The position numbers and the translations under genes are program-made. A stretch of DNA of 64,000 bases from Chitinophagales bacterium (lineage in GTDB: Bacteria > Bacteroidota > Bacteroidia > Chitinophagales > UBA2359), in contig JAHDFD010000019.1 in assembly GCA_020628375.1 (NCBI GenBank), forward strand, positions 1 through 64,000. The letters are read 5' to 3'. The notes beneath the pieces were generated by a model. That model made no database searches, was not told the DNA's origin, and worked only from the letters and a program-made list of their open reading frames with translations. Every line of letters starts with the position of its first letter. Positions within the stretch are counted from its first letter, which is position 1. Below are positions 1,104-56,006 of the stretch, one piece after another.

Positions 1104-3308
1104 ATGGCAACAATAAACTTTTATTTAGATAAGAAAGATAAGAAAGGATTTACCCCTATTCATTTGAGAATCAATTGTAAAGGATCTCAAATCAAATTAT
1201 CAACTGGTAGAAAAGTAGATCCTCAATATTTTGACAAAGAGATTCAAAGGGTAAAAGGAAGCTCAAAACACGCAAATATAACTAATCATTATCTAGACTT
1301 CTTAGAGGAACGAGCTGACGAATTACTCCATAATTCGGATAAGAAGAAATATACACACCAACGAATTAAAGATATACTTAATCAACATATAGAAAGCTAT
1401 AAAGAAAATAACAATGTAAGTATTGTCAAAGAACAGATTTCGTTATATGGAAAACCATTCACATTTATTGATTTGTTCGCTGGTGCAGGTGGATTTAGTG
1501 AAGGCTTTTTACAAGCAGAACATAATAACAAATATTTTGATTTTATTTTAGGAAATGATATAAATGAAAATTGTGAATTAACCCATATAATTAGATATAA
1601 TCATCAACTTGGTTTAGATGCAGAATTTTTATGTCAAGACATAACAGAACCTGACTTTTTAGATAACTTATTAGAAAAAATAGGTAATAAAAAAATTGAT
1701 GTTGTTTGTGGTGGACCTCCTTGTCAAAGCTTTAGTCTAGCTGGAAAAAGGAAAAAGTTTGATAAAAAAGATGATCTATTCTCCCACTACTTAGAAGTTA
1801 TCAAAGTTTTACAACCAAAATATTTTGTAATGGAAAATGTTAAAGGAATTCTGACAAAAGAAAAAGGGCAAATTAAAGATATTATTATTAATCAAATCAA
1901 CTCTATTATAGATGTTAATGAAATTCCTCAACTAATACAATTCATTCGTAATATAAAAAATAATACAAATTCATTCATAATAGATGTTATAATTAAACGC
2001 ATTGAAATTGAAGAAAAAAGAGAAAATGAAAAAGATAAAGTAGAAGAAAACTATATCAAATTTATTGATTCTAAATTTAAGCAATTAACTCCTAAGATTG
2101 TTGATTATAAAACAAGTAAAACAGATACAAGAATTAATACAATAAGACATGGGTTCAATATTTTAGCCAGAAAAAAACAATGGGAAAAGTTAAAGCATAA
2201 TATTATTAAGGAAAAGGATTTTTGTAATATTGATAATGATTTCTTTGTAAATGACTTCACTGTTTTCCTTACTAGAATAAGTACAGATAGTGTAATTCAG
2301 GAAATTCAATCATCATTTCAATCATTAGAAATTCCATCAGACTTTAAAAAGGATTGTGACAATATAATTTTTGCACTTAAAATTTATACATCTACATTTG
2401 ATGAAGTAGTAAGAAACTTATCAAGTTACTGTACGGAAATAGAAAAAAAAGAACTAGAAACTATTCTTAAAAATATAAGGTTGTACAAGATAGAAAAGCC
2501 TTTTATTGCTAATGCTTCAAATTACGGAGTTCCCCAAAATCGAGAAAGAGTTTTATTTATTGGATGCCGGAAAGATCAAAAATTTATTTCAGATATTCCA
2601 CCAACAGTTAGAGAAGAAGAAAAAGTTTCAATTTTTGAAGCTCTTTATGATTTAGATTTCATAGGAAATAATGAAGAAGCAAGAAGATATGAATCAATCA
2701 ATATATCTAAACAATACAATGGCACAGCAAAGAAAATGAAGAGTTTGTTGAAGAAGAGAGCAGTTAGTGGCAAAATCAATCCTAAAGGAAAAACATTTTC
2801 TGAATGGTCAAGAGAGGGCAGACTAATTAAAAGATACAAAACTAAGAATAAGCCCTTTTATGTAAGAAACTCAGAAGCTTTAAAAAATGGAGAAAAATAT
2901 TTTGATATTTTGAATAACCACAAAACTAGCAACCAAAATAAAATAGTTATCAAGCGATTAGAGATAATTTTAAAAAATGGAGATTATAAAAAAGCTCTAA
3001 AGGAATTAGAAGAAAAAGGACTTGCATCAAAAAAGCGAAACTACAATGTTCTTAAACCGGAAGAACAAAGTTCTACAATAATGACCATCCCAGATGACTA
3101 CATACACTATAATTCTCCAAGACCTTTGACAGTAAGAGAAATGGCAAGACTCCAATCATTTGATGACTCATTTGTTTTCCAAGGTAAAAGATCAACAGGC
3201 GGAAACAACAGAAAATCTGAAGTTCCACAATATACATTAGTAGGCAATGCAGTCCCTCCACTGTTGGCAAGAGCTATTGCATCTGAAATTCTGAAATTCA
3301 TAAAATGA
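1104..3308 (+). CDS. DNA (cytosine-5) methyltransferase with N-terminal integrase-type Arm domain
   Basis: C5-cytosine DNA methyltransferase of a type II restriction-modification system. Motif I is FIDLFAGAGGFSEGF (about residues 121-135), motif IV GGPPCQSF with catalytic Cys207, motif VI ENV at 244-246, motif VIII YGVPQNRER at about 474-482, motif IX LTVREMARLQSF, and motif X GNAVPP near the C-terminus. Residues 1-75 (INFYLDKKDKKGFTPIHLRI, then a basic LSTGRKV segment and QRVKGSS) look like the Arm DNA-binding domain of Bacteroidota tyrosine recombinases, which is unusual on a methyltransferase. About 210 residues of charged sequence are inserted between motifs VI and VIII, which helps explain the 734-residue length. 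The stop overlaps the restriction gene start (ATGA). The AT-rich composition unlike dxs suggests transfer. Confidence 0.93.
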   Translation: MATINFYLDKKDKKGFTPIHLRINCKGSQIKLSTGRKVDPQYFDKEIQRVKGSSKHANITNHYLDFLEERADELLHNSDKKKYTHQRIKDILNQHIESYKENNNVSIVKEQISLYGKPFTFIDLFAGAGGFSEGFLQAEHNNKYFDFILGNDINENCELTHIIRYNHQLGLDAEFLCQDITEPDFLDNLLEKIGNKKIDVVCGGPPCQSFSLAGKRKKFDKKDDLFSHYLEVIKVLQPKYFVMENVKGILTKEKGQIKDIIINQINSIIDVNEIPQLIQFIRNIKNNTNSFIIDVIIKRIEIEEKRENEKDKVEENYIKFIDSKFKQLTPKIVDYKTSKTDTRINTIRHGFNILARKKQWEKLKHNIIKEKDFCNIDNDFFVNDFTVFLTRISTDSVIQEIQSSFQSLEIPSDFKKDCDNIIFALKIYTSTFDEVVRNLSSYCTEIEKKELETILKNIRLYKIEKPFIANASNYGVPQNRERVLFIGCRKDQKFISDIPPTVREEEKVSIFEALYDLDFIGNNEEARRYESINISKQYNGTAKKMKSLLKKRAVSGKINPKGKTFSEWSREGRLIKRYKTKNKPFYVRNSEALKNGEKYFDILNNHKTSNQNKIVIKRLEIILKNGDYKKALKELEEKGLASKKRNYNVLKPEEQSSTIMTIPDDYIHYNSPRPLTVREMARLQSFDDSFVFQGKRSTGGNNRKSEVPQYTLVGNAVPPLLARAIASEILKFIK

Positions 3309-4483
3309 GATCATTAAGTAATATTGAAGAGTACAGATTAAAAATTCTCACTCAAAATCAAGTATCTGTAAGTATTATAGAACCAACAGAAACAGCCCTT
3401 AAGAAATCAATTATGGATGCAACTGGATCAGTGAGGTATTACTTAAAAGAAAATGATGTACATGATTATGCTCAACAAGGACAAGGCCCCAACAATAAAG
3501 TAATAATTGATACACTTATATATTTAGAAACAGAAGTTGTTAAATCTAATGCCTCCTTATACAGACCTAAAACCAAAAAGGGGGATCCTAGAATATGGTT
3601 CTCTGGATTAAAAAGATACGCATCTCCAAATGATTTAATTGCCATTCTAGCATTCGATAATAAATTACATATATTTAACTTAACAACCTTAGATATAGTT
3701 AAGTTACTATCAGATAAAAATAAAAATCCTTTGAAAGAATTAATCGAGGAAATTAATGGGGATGCTAATCAAATAGCATTCGAATTATTAGGAATGCTGA
3801 GAAAAATAGCATCTTCTGGACCAATTCCTTCGATAGTAGCCGCTGATACATCTGTAGGTAGAACACTAGAATCATTATTAGGAATTGATATCAATTCCTC
3901 AAAGAAGCCGGACTATAAAGGAATTGAACTAAAATCATTCAGAGGAAATCGTTCAAACAGAAAAAATTTATTTGCACAAGTTCCGAATTGGAAAATAAGC
4001 AAATTCAAAAGCTCTGCAGAGATTCTAAATAGTTTTGGTTATGAACGTGGTGATGACTTTAAATTATATTGTACTGTTTCTGCTATTACAAGAAACTCTC
4101 AAGGGTTAAAACTACGGTTAGATAGTGAGCTTAGGTACTTAGCTGAAAATTCAAACAAAAATGATGTTGGTGATTTTGTAGTTTGGACACTAGATAAATT
4201 GCATGAAAGACTTCAAGAAAAACACAAAGAGACTTTTTGGGTAGAAGCTGAAAGCATAATAATTAATGAAAAGGAACACTTTCTATATAAATTAGTAGAG
4301 CATACTAGAAAGCCTATTAATTCTCAATTCGATATTTTAATAAATCAAGGTATTATTACTTTAGATCATTTGATAAAAAGAAATTCTAAAGGAAAAGTAG
4401 TTGAAAAAGGACCATTATTCAAGATTAAACCTAAAGGAATAAATTTGCTTTTCCCTCCAAGTATAAAATATAGTTTATTGTAA
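3305..4483 (+). CDS. Type II restriction endonuclease, MvaI/BcnI-like
   Basis: Cognate endonuclease of the preceding methyltransferase, inferred from the 4-bp ATGA overlap and a PD-(D/E)xK site. Residues 183-210 carry the family pattern: SVGRTLESLLGI, then PDYKGIELK with Asp203, Glu208 and Lys210 as candidate metal-binding catalytic residues. This layout matches the MvaI/BcnI family, whose members cut CCWGG or CCSGG as monomers; the actual target cannot be read from sequence. About 180 residues precede the catalytic core, longer than minimal MvaI or BcnI and possibly a separate recognition domain. Translational coupling after the methyltransferase would ensure the host is protected first. No controller (C) protein gene or Vsr gene is visible. 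Confidence 0.85.
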   Translation: MRSLSNIEEYRLKILTQNQVSVSIIEPTETALKKSIMDATGSVRYYLKENDVHDYAQQGQGPNNKVIIDTLIYLETEVVKSNASLYRPKTKKGDPRIWFSGLKRYASPNDLIAILAFDNKLHIFNLTTLDIVKLLSDKNKNPLKELIEEINGDANQIAFELLGMLRKIASSGPIPSIVAADTSVGRTLESLLGIDINSSKKPDYKGIELKSFRGNRSNRKNLFAQVPNWKISKFKSSAEILNSFGYERGDDFKLYCTVSAITRNSQGLKLRLDSELRYLAENSNKNDVGDFVVWTLDKLHERLQEKHKETFWVEAESIIINEKEHFLYKLVEHTRKPINSQFDILINQGIITLDHLIKRNSKGKVVEKGPLFKIKPKGINLLFPPSIKYSLL

Positions 4484-4705: not shown

Positions 4706-6631
4706 ATGAAAGTCGAAGCAGGTCCTTTACTATCAGGCATCAACACTCCCGAAGATTTACGTAAGTTAGGAAAAGATAAAGTTTTTCAGCTTTGCTCTGA
4801 ATTACGTGATTTTATTATAGATACCGTTTCTATCAATGGCGGACACTTTGGTGCCAGCCTCGGTGTGGTAGAAATGACCGTTGCGCTGCACTATGTGTAC
4901 AATACTCCCGAAGATCAAATCGTCTGGGATGTTGGGCATCAGGCTTACGGACATAAAATTCTTACCGGACGACGCGAGGAATTTCATACCAACAGAACTT
5001 ATGGTGGTATATGTGGTTTCCCAAGCCGCTTCGAAAGTGAATACGATACCTTCGGCGTAGGACATTCTTCTACTTCTGTTTCGGCAGCCTTAGGTATGGC
5101 GGTAGCCAATAATTACCTCGAAAACGATCGTAAGCACATTGCTATTATCGGCGATGGTGCCATGACGGGTGGCTTAGCATTTGAAGGTTTGAATAATGCA
5201 GGTATTACCAATTCCGATGTTCTGATCATACTGAATGATAATTGCATGTCTATCGATCCGAATGTGGGTGGACTTAAAGAATACTTAACCGATATTACTA
5301 CCTCACCTACTTATAATAAAGTTCGCGACGAAGTTTGGAAAATGTTGGGGAGCATTAGTAAGTTCGGCAAAAGTGCGCAGGAAGTTGCTTCTAAAGTAGA
5401 AGCTTCGATGAAAGGCGTTCTTAACAAGCAAAGTAATTTATTTGAAGGGCTGGGCTTGCGTTATTTTGGTCCTGTAGATGGACACGATGTAAATAAACTT
5501 GTAGAAATTTTTGAAGACCTTAAAAATATCAAAGGACCTAAAATTCTGCATTGTATTACCACAAAAGGAAAAGGTTATTTACCTGCTGAAAAAGATCAAA
5601 CAAAATGGCATGCTCCGGGACTTTTTGATAAAATAACCGGGGAAATAAAAAAGAAATATCCTACTACACCACAAGCACCTAAATTCCAAGATGTTTTCGG
5701 GCATACGATAATAGAATTGGCAAAAGAAAATCCGAAGATCATGGGTATTACCCCGGCAATGCCGAGTGGATGTTCTTTAAAATATATGATCGCCGAAATG
5801 CCTGACAGGGCTTTTGATGTCGGTATTTGCGAGCAGCATGCGGTTACTTTTTCTGCTGGTCTGGCAACACAGGGCTTGGTTCCTTTCTGTAATATTTATT
5901 CTACCTTCATGCAGCGTGCTTACGATCAGGTAATTCACGATGTGGCAATTCAAAATTTACACGTTGTTTTCTGTCTGGATCGTGGTGGTTTGGTCGGTGC
6001 CGATGGTGCAACCCATCATGGCGCATTCGATCTCGCCTATTTCCGTTGTATTCCGAATATGGTAGTGGCTGCGCCGATGAACGAAGAAGAGTTGCGCAAT
6101 ATGATGTACACCTTCCAGCTCGATAAAAATGCTTTCCCATCTTCTATTCGTTATCCGCGTGGTCAGGGAGTAATGCCTGAGTGGAAGACACCTTTACAAG
6201 AATTAGAGATTGGTAAAGGTCGTTGCGTGGCCGAAGGTGAAGAAGTTGCTATTCTGACCATAGGAAATACCGGAAACTTTGCCGTTGAGGCTTGTAAAAA
6301 CTTAGGTCGCGATAATTTATATCCGGCACATTATGATATGCGTTTTGTGAAACCACTCGATGAAGATTTACTGCACGAAATTTTCACAAATTTCAATAAA
6401 GTTGTAACTGTTGAAGATGGTGTTATTCAGGGTGGTTTTGGTTCTGCTATCATTGAGTTTATGGTCGATCATGGCTATTCGGCACGTGTAAAACGCTTGG
6501 GTGTTCCCGATAAATTTATCGAACACGGTACTCAACAACAACTTTGGGCTGAATGTGGTTACGATGCCAATGGCATTGTAAAGGCAGTTCGTGCTTTTGC
6601 TCAGGTTGAAGACAGTATTGAACTAGTTTAA
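4706..6631 (+). CDS. dxs: 1-deoxy-D-xylulose-5-phosphate synthase
   Basis: Thiamine-diphosphate enzyme that condenses pyruvate with glyceraldehyde 3-phosphate, the first step of the MEP isoprenoid pathway. The N-terminal half has DVGHQAYGHKILTGRR and the ThDP-binding GDGAMTGG...NDN; the transketolase pyrimidine domain has the conserved VGICEQHAVTFSAGLA segment, and the C-terminal transketolase domain is complete. At 641 residues it has the usual length. An AT-rich 222-bp gap separates it from the restriction gene. TATTTTTG at 4634-4641 fits the Bacteroidota -7 element (TAnnTTTG), although no good -33 element precedes it, so it probably has its own promoter. A strong terminator follows. Confidence 0.98.
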   Translation: MKVEAGPLLSGINTPEDLRKLGKDKVFQLCSELRDFIIDTVSINGGHFGASLGVVEMTVALHYVYNTPEDQIVWDVGHQAYGHKILTGRREEFHTNRTYGGICGFPSRFESEYDTFGVGHSSTSVSAALGMAVANNYLENDRKHIAIIGDGAMTGGLAFEGLNNAGITNSDVLIILNDNCMSIDPNVGGLKEYLTDITTSPTYNKVRDEVWKMLGSISKFGKSAQEVASKVEASMKGVLNKQSNLFEGLGLRYFGPVDGHDVNKLVEIFEDLKNIKGPKILHCITTKGKGYLPAEKDQTKWHAPGLFDKITGEIKKKYPTTPQAPKFQDVFGHTIIELAKENPKIMGITPAMPSGCSLKYMIAEMPDRAFDVGICEQHAVTFSAGLATQGLVPFCNIYSTFMQRAYDQVIHDVAIQNLHVVFCLDRGGLVGADGATHHGAFDLAYFRCIPNMVVAAPMNEEELRNMMYTFQLDKNAFPSSIRYPRGQGVMPEWKTPLQELEIGKGRCVAEGEEVAILTIGNTGNFAVEACKNLGRDNLYPAHYDMRFVKPLDEDLLHEIFTNFNKVVTVEDGVIQGGFGSAIIEFMVDHGYSARVKRLGVPDKFIEHGTQQQLWAECGYDANGIVKAVRAFAQVEDSIELV

Positions 6632-6653
6632 GCCTACAAAATACGATTTTACT

Positions 6654-6700
6654 AAATCCCTCAATGAATAATAATCGTTCATTGAGGGATTTTTATTTTA
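6654..6700 (+). terminator. Rho-independent terminator after dxs
   Basis: A perfect 15-bp stem (6654-6668 with 6678-6692) around a 9-base loop is followed directly by a T-rich run. It separates dxs from the small peptide array. Confidence 0.9.
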
Positions 6701-6874
6701 CCTTTTTTCTTCTTTAAAACTTAAGCCATTATTCCCATAAGCTTCTGTTTTTCAAAACCTTACTTCTAAGTATAAATATTTAGAATCTTACATTACACCT
6801 AGTATTTGGATTTCTTAGTATTGTTTCTTTTCTGAAATTTGGAGTTATTAATTAATTCTTTAAAAATTCAGAAA

Positions 6875-7039
6875 ATGAATAAGAAATTCAAAGCTTTAGC
6901 ACTAAAAACAAAAGACCAAAAAGCCATTAAAGGTGGAGTGATAAATAATTCTCATAGCCCTACCTATTTTTCATCTAATGGTCAGGATTCAGTGTTGGCG
7001 CTTACTAGTGCTAATGGAGAAACTGGATCAATTGCCTGA
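6875..7039 (+). CDS. GG-leader small peptide 1 (Ser/Thr-rich core)
   Basis: A 54-residue peptide starting at the ATG at 6875 (MNKKFKALALKTKDQKAIKGG). A longer reading from 6839 is possible, but the later ATG gives the short lysine-rich leader shared by its neighbours. The leader ends in KGG at about residues 19-21, and the remaining 33 residues are rich in Ser, Thr, Asn and Gly with no Cys. This resembles the GG-leader natural-product precursors annotated in Bacteroidota (leader removed by a C39 peptidase-transporter), but its core is unrelated to the four Cys-ending peptides downstream. No modifying enzyme is visible nearby. Function is inferred from the leader only. Confidence 0.65.
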   Translation: MNKKFKALALKTKDQKAIKGGVINNSHSPTYFSSNGQDSVLALTSANGETGSIA

Positions 7040-7071
7040 AACAAATTCTATTAGTCCTGAAAATTCAGAAA

Positions 7072-7206
7072 ATGAAAAAGATCAAACTTAAAAACATTGG
7101 AACAAAACAAGCTTTGAAAGAAAAAGAATTGCTTGTAGTGAAAGGCGGAAATGGTGGAAATAACGAGCGAGCTTATAAAATCACACAACTTTGCCTTGAA
7201 TGTTAA
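7072..7206 (+). CDS. GG-leader small peptide 2 (CLEC type)
   Basis: A 44-residue peptide beginning MKKIKLKNIGTKQALKEKEL and continuing LVVKGGNGGNNE; it ends in CLEC. The leader is the same as in peptides 4 and 5, with the KGG cleavage-type motif at about residues 24-26. The proposed core is about 18 residues with two Cys in a terminal CxxC. The gene lies 32 bases after peptide 1. The spacer before the next gene (about 17 bases) is repeated later in the array, showing expansion by duplication. Likely a secreted, post-translationally modified or disulfide-bonded peptide; no product is known to me. Confidence 0.75.
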   Translation: MKKIKLKNIGTKQALKEKELLVVKGGNGGNNERAYKITQLCLEC

Positions 7207-7223
7207 CCTTTAAAACTGGAAAA

Positions 7224-7373
7224 ATGAAAAAGATCAAACTTAAAAACATCGGAAAAAAACAGATTTTAAAACCAACGCAAACTACTTCTGTTAAAGGTGG
7301 GGGAAATGATGCGATTACCGTTTACGGTGAAGAAGAACAGAGAAAGATTAATGGGTTCTGCTTAGAATGTTAA
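7224..7373 (+). CDS. GG-leader small peptide 3 (divergent CLEC type)
   Basis: A 49-residue peptide. The first 13 residues (MKKIKLKNIGKKQ) and the last four (CLEC) match its neighbours, but the second half of the leader (ILKPTQTTSVKGG) and the core (GNDAITVYGEEEQRKING) differ. It is the most diverged member of the Cys-ending set, suggesting it is older than the near-identical peptides 2, 4 and 5, or selected for a different activity. The retained KGG and CLEC mark these as the functional constants of the family. Confidence 0.72.
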   Translation: MKKIKLKNIGKKQILKPTQTTSVKGGGNDAITVYGEEEQRKINGFCLEC

Positions 7374-7391
7374 GCAAATAAAATTGAAATT

Positions 7392-7532
7392 ATGAAAAAA
7401 ATTACTTTAAAAAATATTAGTAAAAAACAAGCTTTGAAAGAAAAAGAATTGCTTGTAGTGAAAGGCGGAAATGGTGGAAATAACGAGCAGGTAAGAGGCT
7501 ATAAAACTACTTTTTCTTGCCTTGAATGTTAA
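7392..7532 (+). CDS. GG-leader small peptide 4 (CLEC type)
   Basis: A 46-residue peptide. The leader MKKITLKNISKKQALKEKEL continues LVVKGG, and the core is NGGNNEQVRGYKTTFS followed by CLEC. Compared with peptide 2, the core gains two residues and changes from NNERAYKITQL to NNEQVRGYKTTFS. The nucleotide sequence from the second half of the leader through the start of the core (about 7429-7488) is the same as in peptide 2, which indicates recent duplication or gene conversion. Confidence 0.75.
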   Translation: MKKITLKNISKKQALKEKELLVVKGGNGGNNEQVRGYKTTFSCLEC

Positions 7533-7549
7533 CCTTTAAAATTGGAAAA

Positions 7550-7690
7550 ATGAAAAAGATCATACTTAAAAACATTGGAACAAAACAAGCTCTGAGAGAG
7601 AAAGAATTGCTTGTAGTGAAAGGCGGAAATGGTGGAAATAACGAGCAGGTAAGAGGGTATAAGATTACACAATCTTGTCTTGAATGTTAA
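7550..7690 (+). CDS. GG-leader small peptide 5 (CLEC type)
   Basis: A 46-residue peptide, the last of the array. The leader is MKKIILKNIGTKQALREKEL then LVVKGG; the core is NGGNNEQVRGYKITQS plus CLEC. It differs from peptide 4 in only a few leader and core positions. The spacer before it repeats the one between peptides 2 and 3 (TTAACCTTTAAAA, one variable base, TGGAAAA, then ATG). The array ends here. The following 280 bases hold no peptide gene. Confidence 0.75.
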   Translation: MKKIILKNIGTKQALREKELLVVKGGNGGNNEQVRGYKITQSCLEC

Positions 7691-7729
7691 TCGAATAAAC
7701 TTAATGAATTAACTTTGTAAGTTATTGTG

Positions 7730-7841
7730 TACCTTTGCGTGTACATTATATTCCTTTTCGGTAATTTCTATAAAATACCTGCTACTACTATTAATCAGTT
7801 ATGGTTAGACGGCTTGTGAAAACTTTGCAAGCCGTTTTTTA
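7730..7841 (+). ncRNA. Candidate small RNA transcript (about 100 nt)
   Basis: TACCTTTG at 7730-7737 is an exact match to the Bacteroidota -7 consensus TAnnTTTG, though no well-spaced -33 TTTG is present. A perfect 8-bp GC-rich hairpin (7809-7816 with 7828-7835) followed by six T ends the segment. No open reading frame of note lies between, so a transcript of roughly 100 nt is predicted. Its length would suit a 6S-like or other regulatory RNA, but I see no diagnostic structure. It could also be the terminated leader of nothing. Confidence 0.35.
7809..7841 (+). terminator. Rho-independent terminator
   Basis: Stem ACGGCTTG / CAAGCCGT (7809-7816 and 7828-7835), 11-base loop, then TTTTTT. It closes the candidate small RNA and lies between the peptide array and the convergent minus-strand genes. 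Confidence 0.8.
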
Positions 7842-7971
7842 TATGCAAAATTCAGGTTATGAAATGTAGTAAAGAGCCATCGAAATTATATCAAGTTCAA
7901 TGCCGAACAAATTTATAATACAATTTTTAACAGAACGCCTCTATACACCTTCAAGGTGAAAAGACTTAAAA

Positions 7972-8478
7972 TTAAAGTCGGTTATGCTTAAAAGCCTCGT
8001 TCAATTCTTTGTAATCAAGCATGCCACCCGTTGATTTAAGGTAACTGATAATAACAATTGCTTTGGTAAGTCTGGTGTTTGAAGTTTTGGGTTTACCGAT
8101 AATATGCAGCAGGCTTCTTTGTTTGCCGGGTGTTAAACGGTGAAATAAGGTATCGCCTTCCGGGTCCTGATTCAGTAGCTCCTGAAATTCTTCCGGCATG
8201 GGCATTCCATATTTACTATCGTCTTTTTCTAAGCTGATTTCGATGGTATCACCAACATCTTTGCCCAATTTTTTTCTTCTTTCTTTATTTAAAAGAACAA
8301 AGAATCCTCCACTGCCATCGGGAATCAGCGCTGCCTGAAAACGCTCTTCTTCGATAGTACAAACAACCCGTTTTTCACCTTCCTTAACCAATTCTTTACT
8401 TATCTTATCTGGTATTGGAATACCTACTTGCCAAACATGACCACCAATACTGGATATTATCGATTGAAACGTTTTCAT
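7972..8478 (-). CDS. YdeI/OmpD-associated family protein with DUF1905-like domain
   Basis: A 168-residue cytoplasmic protein. The N-terminal half (TIGGHVW-type start, then VVCTIEEERFQAALIPDGSG and ISLEKDD) matches DUF1905. The C-terminal half (ELLNQDPEGDTLFHRLTPGKQRSLLHII...TRLTKAI) matches the YdeI/OmpD-associated helical domain. Biochemical function is unknown for the family. I choose the ATG at 8476-8478 because it overlaps the stop of the upstream gene as ATGA, implying translational coupling; a start at 8505 would overlap that gene by 31 bases. Family assignment comes from sequence pattern recall. Confidence 0.8.
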   Translation of the reverse strand: MKTFQSIISSIGGHVWQVGIPIPDKISKELVKEGEKRVVCTIEEERFQAALIPDGSGGFFVLLNKERRKKLGKDVGDTIEISLEKDDSKYGMPMPEEFQELLNQDPEGDTLFHRLTPGKQRSLLHIIGKPKTSNTRLTKAIVIISYLKSTGGMLDYKELNEAFKHNRL

Positions 8479-54816: not shown

Positions 54817-55296
54817 TTATTCCTCACCTCCACTAGATTTCATTGTTAAACTTATAGATATTACATTGGTATCATTTATCAATCTATCAATTTGTGATAC
54901 ATTAAATTGAACATTATAAGCACTCACTGTACTTCCTATCTTTACAACAACCTTCTTAAACCCATCATCAAATCCATAACTTTTATAATCTAATGTGTCT
55001 TTTAATTTTAAATTTGCTTTAAAATTAACATTACATAGTGCATCTATCGTTATATGATAATTCCAAAATTTACCCTCAAAATATTTCAAATATTCATCAT
55101 CCGATATTAATCCTTCCTGATGTTCATTATACTTATCATAAATTTGCAATAATGCTCCTCCAAACTTACCACTATCATGATGTGTAGGTCCTCTATAAAT
55201 TTCTTGTCCCAAAACCATGAAAGTATTTAAAGTTGTTTGACTTAAGGTCAATAGACTATAAAAAAACATTAAGGAAATAGACAGTTTCTTTTTCAT
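54817..55296 (-). CDS. Secreted protein of unknown function, copy A
   Basis: A 159-residue exported protein. The signal peptide (MKKKLSISLMFFYSLLTLSQ) is followed by a mature chain with TTLNTFMVLGQEIYRGP, HHDSGKFGGALLQIYD and a basic beta-rich C-terminal half (VVVKIGSTVSAYNVQFNV). Its end is ISLTMKSSGGEE. It has one Cys in the mature part and no sorting domain or TM anchor. I do not recognise the family. It is one of two near-identical tandem copies flanked by repeats, a context of recent gene amplification. Confidence 0.75.
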   Translation of the reverse strand: MKKKLSISLMFFYSLLTLSQTTLNTFMVLGQEIYRGPTHHDSGKFGGALLQIYDKYNEHQEGLISDDEYLKYFEGKFWNYHITIDALCNVNFKANLKLKDTLDYKSYGFDDGFKKVVVKIGSTVSAYNVQFNVSQIDRLINDTNVISISLTMKSSGGEE

Positions 55297-55526: not shown

Positions 55527-56006
55527 TTATTCCTCACCTACACTAGATTTTATTAATAAACTTATAGATATTACATTGGTATCATTAATTAATCTATCAA
55601 TTTGTGATACATTAAATTGAACATTATAAGCACTCACTGTACTTCCTATCTTTACAACAACCTTCTTAAACCCATCATCAAATCCATAACTTTTATAATC
55701 TAATGTGTCTTTTAATTTTAAATTTGCTTTAAAATTAACATTACATAGTGCATCTATCGTTATATGATAATTCCAAAATTTACCCTCAAAATATTTCAAA
55801 TATTCATCATCCGATATTAATCCTTCCTGATGTTCATTATACTTATCATAAATTTGCAATAATGCTCCTCCAAACTTACCACTATCATGATGTGTAGGTC
55901 CTCTATAAATTTCTTGTCCCAAAACCATGAAAGTATTTAAAGTTGTTTGACTTAAGGTCAATAGACTATAAAAAAACATTAAGGAAATAGACAGTTTCTT
56001 TTTCAT
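55527..56006 (-). CDS. Secreted protein of unknown function, copy B
   Basis: Same 159-residue protein as the copy at 54817-55296, identical except at the C-terminus (ISLLIKSSVGEE instead of ISLTMKSSGGEE). The upstream region is also identical, so both copies should be expressed alike. The changed residues and the nearby silent changes all sit within about 60 bp, which looks like a conversion tract boundary or selection on the tail rather than general drift. Confidence 0.75.
   Translation of the reverse strand: MKKKLSISLMFFYSLLTLSQTTLNTFMVLGQEIYRGPTHHDSGKFGGALLQIYDKYNEHQEGLISDDEYLKYFEGKFWNYHITIDALCNVNFKANLKLKDTLDYKSYGFDDGFKKVVVKIGSTVSAYNVQFNVSQIDRLINDTNVISISLLIKSSVGEE

Follow-up and report, generated by a model that had tools for sequence, protein, structure and literature searches.

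Short double-glycine leader peptides with a conserved C-terminal Cys-x-x-Cys, encoded at three loci of a Chitinophagales genome

Five tandem peptide genes next to dxs

The 64,000-nucleotide stretch analysed here (the window) is C2:1-64000 of a genome that comprises 3.30 Mb in 41 contigs and is 69% complete. Flanked by dxs and a DUF1905/OmdA (YdeI-like) gene, the window carries five short genes, P1 to P5, hereafter array 1 (Table 1). A sequence-only reading of the window had described them as a tandem series of GG-leader peptide genes, and this is what they are: all five lie on the plus strand, and KGG is present in every product. It had also seen, correctly, that P2, P4 and P5 are nearly copies of each other (87-91% at the amino acid level), that the last four products end in C-L-E-C-stop, and that P3 shares with the others little beyond the leader start and the tail, retaining MKKIKLKNIG(K)KQ, VKGG and CLEC. 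The "invariant" character it gave to CLEC stands for P2-P5 but not beyond them, as the family-wide form is C-[LF]-[ED]-C and P1 has neither tail nor Cys.

Table 1. Genes and predicted terminators of array 1 (window positions)
Feature	Position	Strand	Length	Description
Predicted terminator of upstream dxs	6654..6701	+		Hairpin at 6654-6692; sets dxs apart from array 1
P1	6875..7039	+	54 aa	GG-leader peptide without Cys and without CLEC tail
P2	7072..7206	+	44 aa	Precursor MKKIKLKNIGTKQALKEKELLVVKGG/NGGNNERAYKITQLCLEC
P3	7224..7373	+	49 aa from ATG 7224	Divergent precursor MKKIKLKNIGKKQILKPTQTTSVKGG/GNDAITVYGEEEQRKINGFCLEC
P4	7392..7532	+	46 aa	Precursor MKKITLKNISKKQALKEKELLVVKGG/NGGNNEQVRGYKTTFSCLEC
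P5	7550..7690	+	46 aa	Precursor MKKIILKNIGTKQALREKELLVVKGG/NGGNNEQVRGYKITQSCLEC
Predicted intrinsic terminator closing array 1	7807..7843	+		Hairpin at 7807-7837; region folds at z = -3.2

P1 has the leader MNKKFKALALKTKDQKAIKGG, and its 5' flank, AAAATTCAGAAAATGAA, matches the 5' flank of P2. An alignment of P2-P5 spans 52 columns, 22 of them invariant, including K24-G25-G26 and C43-L44-E45-C46. The repeat unit of P2, P4 and P5 measures about 155 nt and takes in the intergenic DNA, which suggests recent tandem duplication of these three genes; P3 has diverged further. An Rfam search of positions 6500-8100 gave no match, and the Bacteroidota promoter TAnnTTTG was not convincingly found 5' of the arrays.

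Two other features of the window may be recorded. At 1104-4483 a C5 cytosine methyltransferase has at its N-terminus an Arm DNA-binding domain of the type found in tyrosine recombinases (PF17293 + PF00145), a fusion that looks unusual, and an MvaI/BcnI-family restriction endonuclease follows it directly. On the minus strand, two 159-residue ORFs (54817-55296 and 55527-56006) start 710 bases apart, have identical first 60 residues and belong to no Pfam family.

Arrays 2 and 3 on contig C30

A single-sequence search of the window's genome returned four matches in the window and a weak one at C30:155549. Reading the DNA around the weak match revealed array 2 (C30:155255-155669), three tandem GG peptides that all end in DCLEC. 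A profile built from the seven sequences then recovered array 3 (C30:222254-222875), whose four peptides end in DCLDC (three) or DCFDC (one). The family thus comprises 11 precursors in three unlinked, operon-like arrays of one genome. The leaders are Lys-rich, end in GG and are 26-29 residues long, and across the 11 precursors K3, K7, K12, G25, G26, C43 and C46 are invariant. Array 1 is predicted to yield products of 18-23 residues after GG, array 2 products of 12 and array 3 products of 12-14; a D precedes the C-L-E/D-C tail in the peptides of arrays 2 and 3. The average masses calculated for the reduced products are 2026.3 (P2), 2588.8 (P3), 2220.4 (P4) and 2213.4 (P5). Arrays 2 and 3 are each followed directly by hairpins that have a T-run or a short T tail. 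Arrays 1 and 3 have a 13-nt stretch, TTAACCTTTAAAA, in common 5' of internal genes, which is consistent with a shared origin.

Conservation of leader and tail

Synonymous and nonsynonymous differences were compared as pN/pS from Nei-Gojobori counts; the pairs are non-independent and the tail is only four codons long, so the figures are descriptive. Leader, core and tail gave 0.32, 0.75 and 0.10 in array 1, 0.37, 0.84 and 0.00 in array 2, 0.14, 0.30 and 0.18 in array 3, and 0.53, 0.96 and 0.13 between arrays. The leader and tail are under purifying selection, and the core is close to neutral. The tail codons vary synonymously (TGC/TGT, CTT/TTA/TTG, GAA/GAG), and hence the tail is held at the protein level. 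The earlier suggestion of GG precursors with a conserved Cys tail is thereby strengthened, both by the two further arrays and by the purifying selection on the tail. No Ser, Thr or Lys is conserved in the cores; the only constant chemistry left is that of the two Cys and of the residues that separate them.

Distribution of the tail

Of the 11 places in the 3.3 Mb genome that fit C-[LF]-E-C-(stop or Trp), seven are GG-leader peptides, from two arrays. A search with C-[LF]-[DE]-C-TAA gives 11 places in this genome, every one of them a GG-leader peptide; among 19 genomes of the same family the latter pattern occurs about 55 times, never in a GG-leader frame. The CLEC pattern in the window is more than chance.

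Searching 398 order-level and 395 class-level genomes (partly overlapping sets) with profiles yielded weak leader matches only, without the tail. The array 1 and array 3 profiles found no homologue among GTDB contigs, nor was one found among viral contigs, plasmids and PHROGs. The peptides have no model in Pfam or PHROGs, and none in NCBIfam above cut-off. Within the genus, the sister species is represented by a genome of only 61% completeness. From these searches the family looks lineage-restricted. Whether homologues exist elsewhere, a question on which the sequence-only reading had staked its claim, thus receives a divided answer: the other genomes searched contained none, and seven lie at unlinked positions of the window's own genome.

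In several genomes of the same family, tandem GG-leader arrays encode peptides whose recurring C-terminal motifs are of another kind: LELGTVDLV/LDLGTLDLL in G010, NIQEG/LEG in G003 and the YPPPFDE type in G016. The group may therefore have a wider habit of following a GG leader with a constant tail. The G016 array (G016:C173; L046:7078-8559) encodes six GG-leader peptides, alternately of two kinds of precursor, which have the motif GYPPPF(D/G)E in common. A TPR histidine kinase adjoins the array, and the two may form a pair of peptide and sensor. A weak order-level match (G069:C56; L012:764-1409) consists of four tandem GG peptides that end in SGRPELL or SGRPQLL. The window's own genome also contains, at G000:C40 (L044:8404-8577), a lone 57-residue GG-leader-like ORF without Cys, near an adenylate/guanylate cyclase TPR protein.

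Neighbouring genes and the exporter

The sequence-only reading had pointed to nearby maturases, and this part found no support: none flanks any array, the sole C39 exporter detected is unlinked, and the sole grasp-with-spasm locus detected lies 10 kb from the nearest array. No recognisable maturase, exporter, immunity gene or thiol oxidoreductase stands beside the three arrays. The neighbours of array 2 are a TetR gene and a protein with an M43-peptidase domain; those of array 3 are a gene run resembling a cell-shape operon and a BT2802-like protein. BT2802-like proteins were dropped as candidate partners, being present at only one of the three arrays. As a separate observation, such proteins (NF058569, weak) adjoin GG arrays in two genomes of the family (L047:4758-7854 in G003:C35, and L043:10255-12441).

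The only C39 domain detected in the genome (C18:53697-54113) belongs to a 728-residue C39-ABC protein that adjoins an HlyD protein; the pair is unlinked to all three arrays. The C39-ABC protein is intact, starting with DSMDCGPTC (the Cys lies in DCGPTC) and having His and Asp candidates in the expected regions. In the C39 protease LahT, V-4, L-7 and L-12 are the residues that seat the leader in the groove, and V-4T was tolerated (PMC6363468). The leaders of P2, P4 and P5 have all three. The pattern is only partial in P3 and in the leaders of arrays 2 and 3, which depart from it by T at -4, T at -7 (array 2) and E at -12 (array 3).

The sole SPASM match in the genome marks a grasp-with-spasm RiPP locus (C30:142282-145172; L053:10283-13173), 10 kb from array 2 and on a different contig from array 1. 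It encodes a SPASM protein (TIGR04193, 215 bits, above cut-off) in which Pfam recognises no radical-SAM domain, a TIGR04192-like ATP-grasp protein that scores below cut-off, and its own GG precursor of 70 residues, without a CxxC tail; a thioredoxin-like protein stands between the ATP-grasp protein and the precursor. TIGR04149 (GG_sam_targ_CFB) is a family built from precursors adjoining SPASM maturases. Against it the CLEC-family leaders score at best 22.6 bits, all below the cut-off of 25.

Interpretation

Judged from its sequences, this is a real peptide family. Its general kind, GG-leader secreted peptides, is known; the conserved CxxC at the C-terminus is unusual, and the genes occupy three loci. 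The explanation that we favour, at about even confidence, is of lineage-restricted, multi-locus short secreted peptides that are exported by a C39 system and carry a constant C-terminal Cys-x-x-Cys loop. The C39 peptidase-ABC exporter with HlyD on C18 would recognise the leader and cut after GG, releasing peptides of 12-23 residues. Outside the cytoplasm the two tail Cys would close as a small C-terminal disulfide loop, a disulfide being the default, and this loop may form the functional or receptor-binding end; the variable core would give each paralogue its own specificity, like bacteriocin or pheromone families. The fixed tail and the freely changing core suggest exported peptides that may act as signals or antimicrobials. 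In favour of the proposal are the two additional arrays, which repeat the leader logic and the tail, the pN/pS values of leader, core and tail, the terminator-like hairpins after each array, the V-4/L-7/L-12 residues of P2, P4 and P5, and the intact C39-ABC protein next to HlyD; the lack of conserved Ser/Thr or Lys in the cores favours a chemistry of the Cys alone. The unlinked transporter counts against it, as do the partial fit of the array 2 and 3 leaders to the C39 pattern and the lack of a thiol oxidoreductase or immunity gene by the arrays, and since the genome is 69% complete, closer partner genes may be missing from it.

Other fates of the tail can be envisaged. The peptides might be in-trans substrates of the grasp-with-spasm locus, its ATP-grasp and SPASM proteins binding the TIGR04149-like leader and modifying the acidic/Cys tail before export, which we think unlikely. 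The sub-threshold TIGR04149 scores and the gene content of the locus near array 2 lend this idea some weight, but the scores are all under cut-off, the local precursor lacks the tail, the SPASM protein has no radical-SAM domain by Pfam, two of the three arrays are far from the locus and none adjoins ATP-grasp or SPASM genes. Graspetide cores, moreover, require a conserved Ser/Thr (or Lys) together with Asp/Glu, and in the CLEC peptides the E/D is conserved without such a nucleophile. In its support, branch-5 graspetide precursors of Bacteroidota are highly diverse and often have conserved Cys (PMC8939145). A broader version, in which C-[LF]-[ED]-C is the site of a new C-terminal modification made on all 11 precursors by one unlinked enzyme acting in trans, defining a new RiPP subclass, appears similarly doubtful. 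It is quite improbable that the CxxC becomes a cypemycin-like aminovinyl-cysteine ring or is altered by another Cys-modifying enzyme. A Cys strictly at the C-terminus, with another three residues before it, would suit such a ring. Cypemycin, in which Cys-19 gives rise to Dha-19 and the C-terminal Cys undergoes oxidative decarboxylation (PMC10880069, PMC9927463), is a precedent for the remodelling of a C-terminal Cys; against this, no decarboxylase or linaridin-type enzyme was seen among the flanking ORFs, inspected by eye, and the MNIO enzyme PF05114 was not found in the 69%-complete genome.

That the tail binds metal through its Cys and Asp/Glu, as the end of a small metallophore or of a peptide that buffers metal, is in our estimate very improbable: its two Cys and the acidic residues of C-L-E/D-C would be plausible soft-metal ligands, but neither His nor any other ligand is conserved, and none of the genes beside the arrays was recognised as a metal regulator, an uptake receptor or an efflux gene. 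That the arrays make no peptide product, being relics or spurious tandem repeats, as near-copy repeats that include intergenic DNA might suggest, we consider extremely improbable, given that frames are open in 11 of 11 copies at three loci, that change in leader and tail is biased to synonymous sites and that each array is followed by a terminator-like hairpin.

In RiPP families the leader is more often the conserved part. The three arrays illustrate that one genome can hold a four-residue tail constant over separate loci while the core drifts. Should the tail serve for modification or for receptor binding, 11 natural variants would be at hand for identifying the enzyme or receptor. The case also illustrates why Bacteroidota families of this kind escape annotation, the genes being very small and without an adjacent maturase.

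Comparison with known systems

Like the prochlorosins, the CLEC family consists of many GG-leader precursors with a conserved leader and a diversified core; prochlorosin leaders are of the double-Gly type (PMC6363468), and one promiscuous enzyme modifies the precursors (PMC10783134). Unlike them, the CLEC family keeps the C-terminal tail as well and has no conserved Ser/Thr to pair with Cys as a lanthipeptide core would, and no lanthipeptide synthetase (dehydratase/cyclase) was recognised beside the arrays. Cypemycin, a type A linaridin, resembles it in that the C-terminal Cys has another Cys-derived residue close by as its partner; the CLEC family differs in the GG leader, the Gram-negative host and arrays in which no linaridin enzymes were seen.

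Closer to the phylum, the precursors of TIGR04149/branch-5 graspetides (PMC8939145) resemble the CLEC peptides in the Lys-rich MKK-type leader, the GG, the diverse cores and the common occurrence of Cys, whereas the CLEC peptides score below cut-off, have no adjacent ATP-grasp/SPASM genes and lack the conserved Ser/Thr plus Asp/Glu pair. The bacteroidetocins (class IIf) are likewise short Bacteroidota GG precursors with Cys in the mature part, exported by a C39 peptidase-ABC protein and most probably disulfide-bonded; their locus has four genes, including those for a TM protein, a thiol oxidoreductase and the C39 exporter, and the product is about 42 residues long (PMC6671954). None of the genes of that locus was recognised at the three CLEC arrays, which are tandem and without a linked transporter, TM protein or thiol oxidoreductase, and the CLEC products are shorter (12-23 vs 42 residues) and have two Cys only, at the very C-terminus. 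Bacteroidetocins are nonetheless the nearest tested case of Cys-bearing GG peptides in the phylum, a precedent that speaks for the C39 export and the disulfide proposed for the CLEC family.
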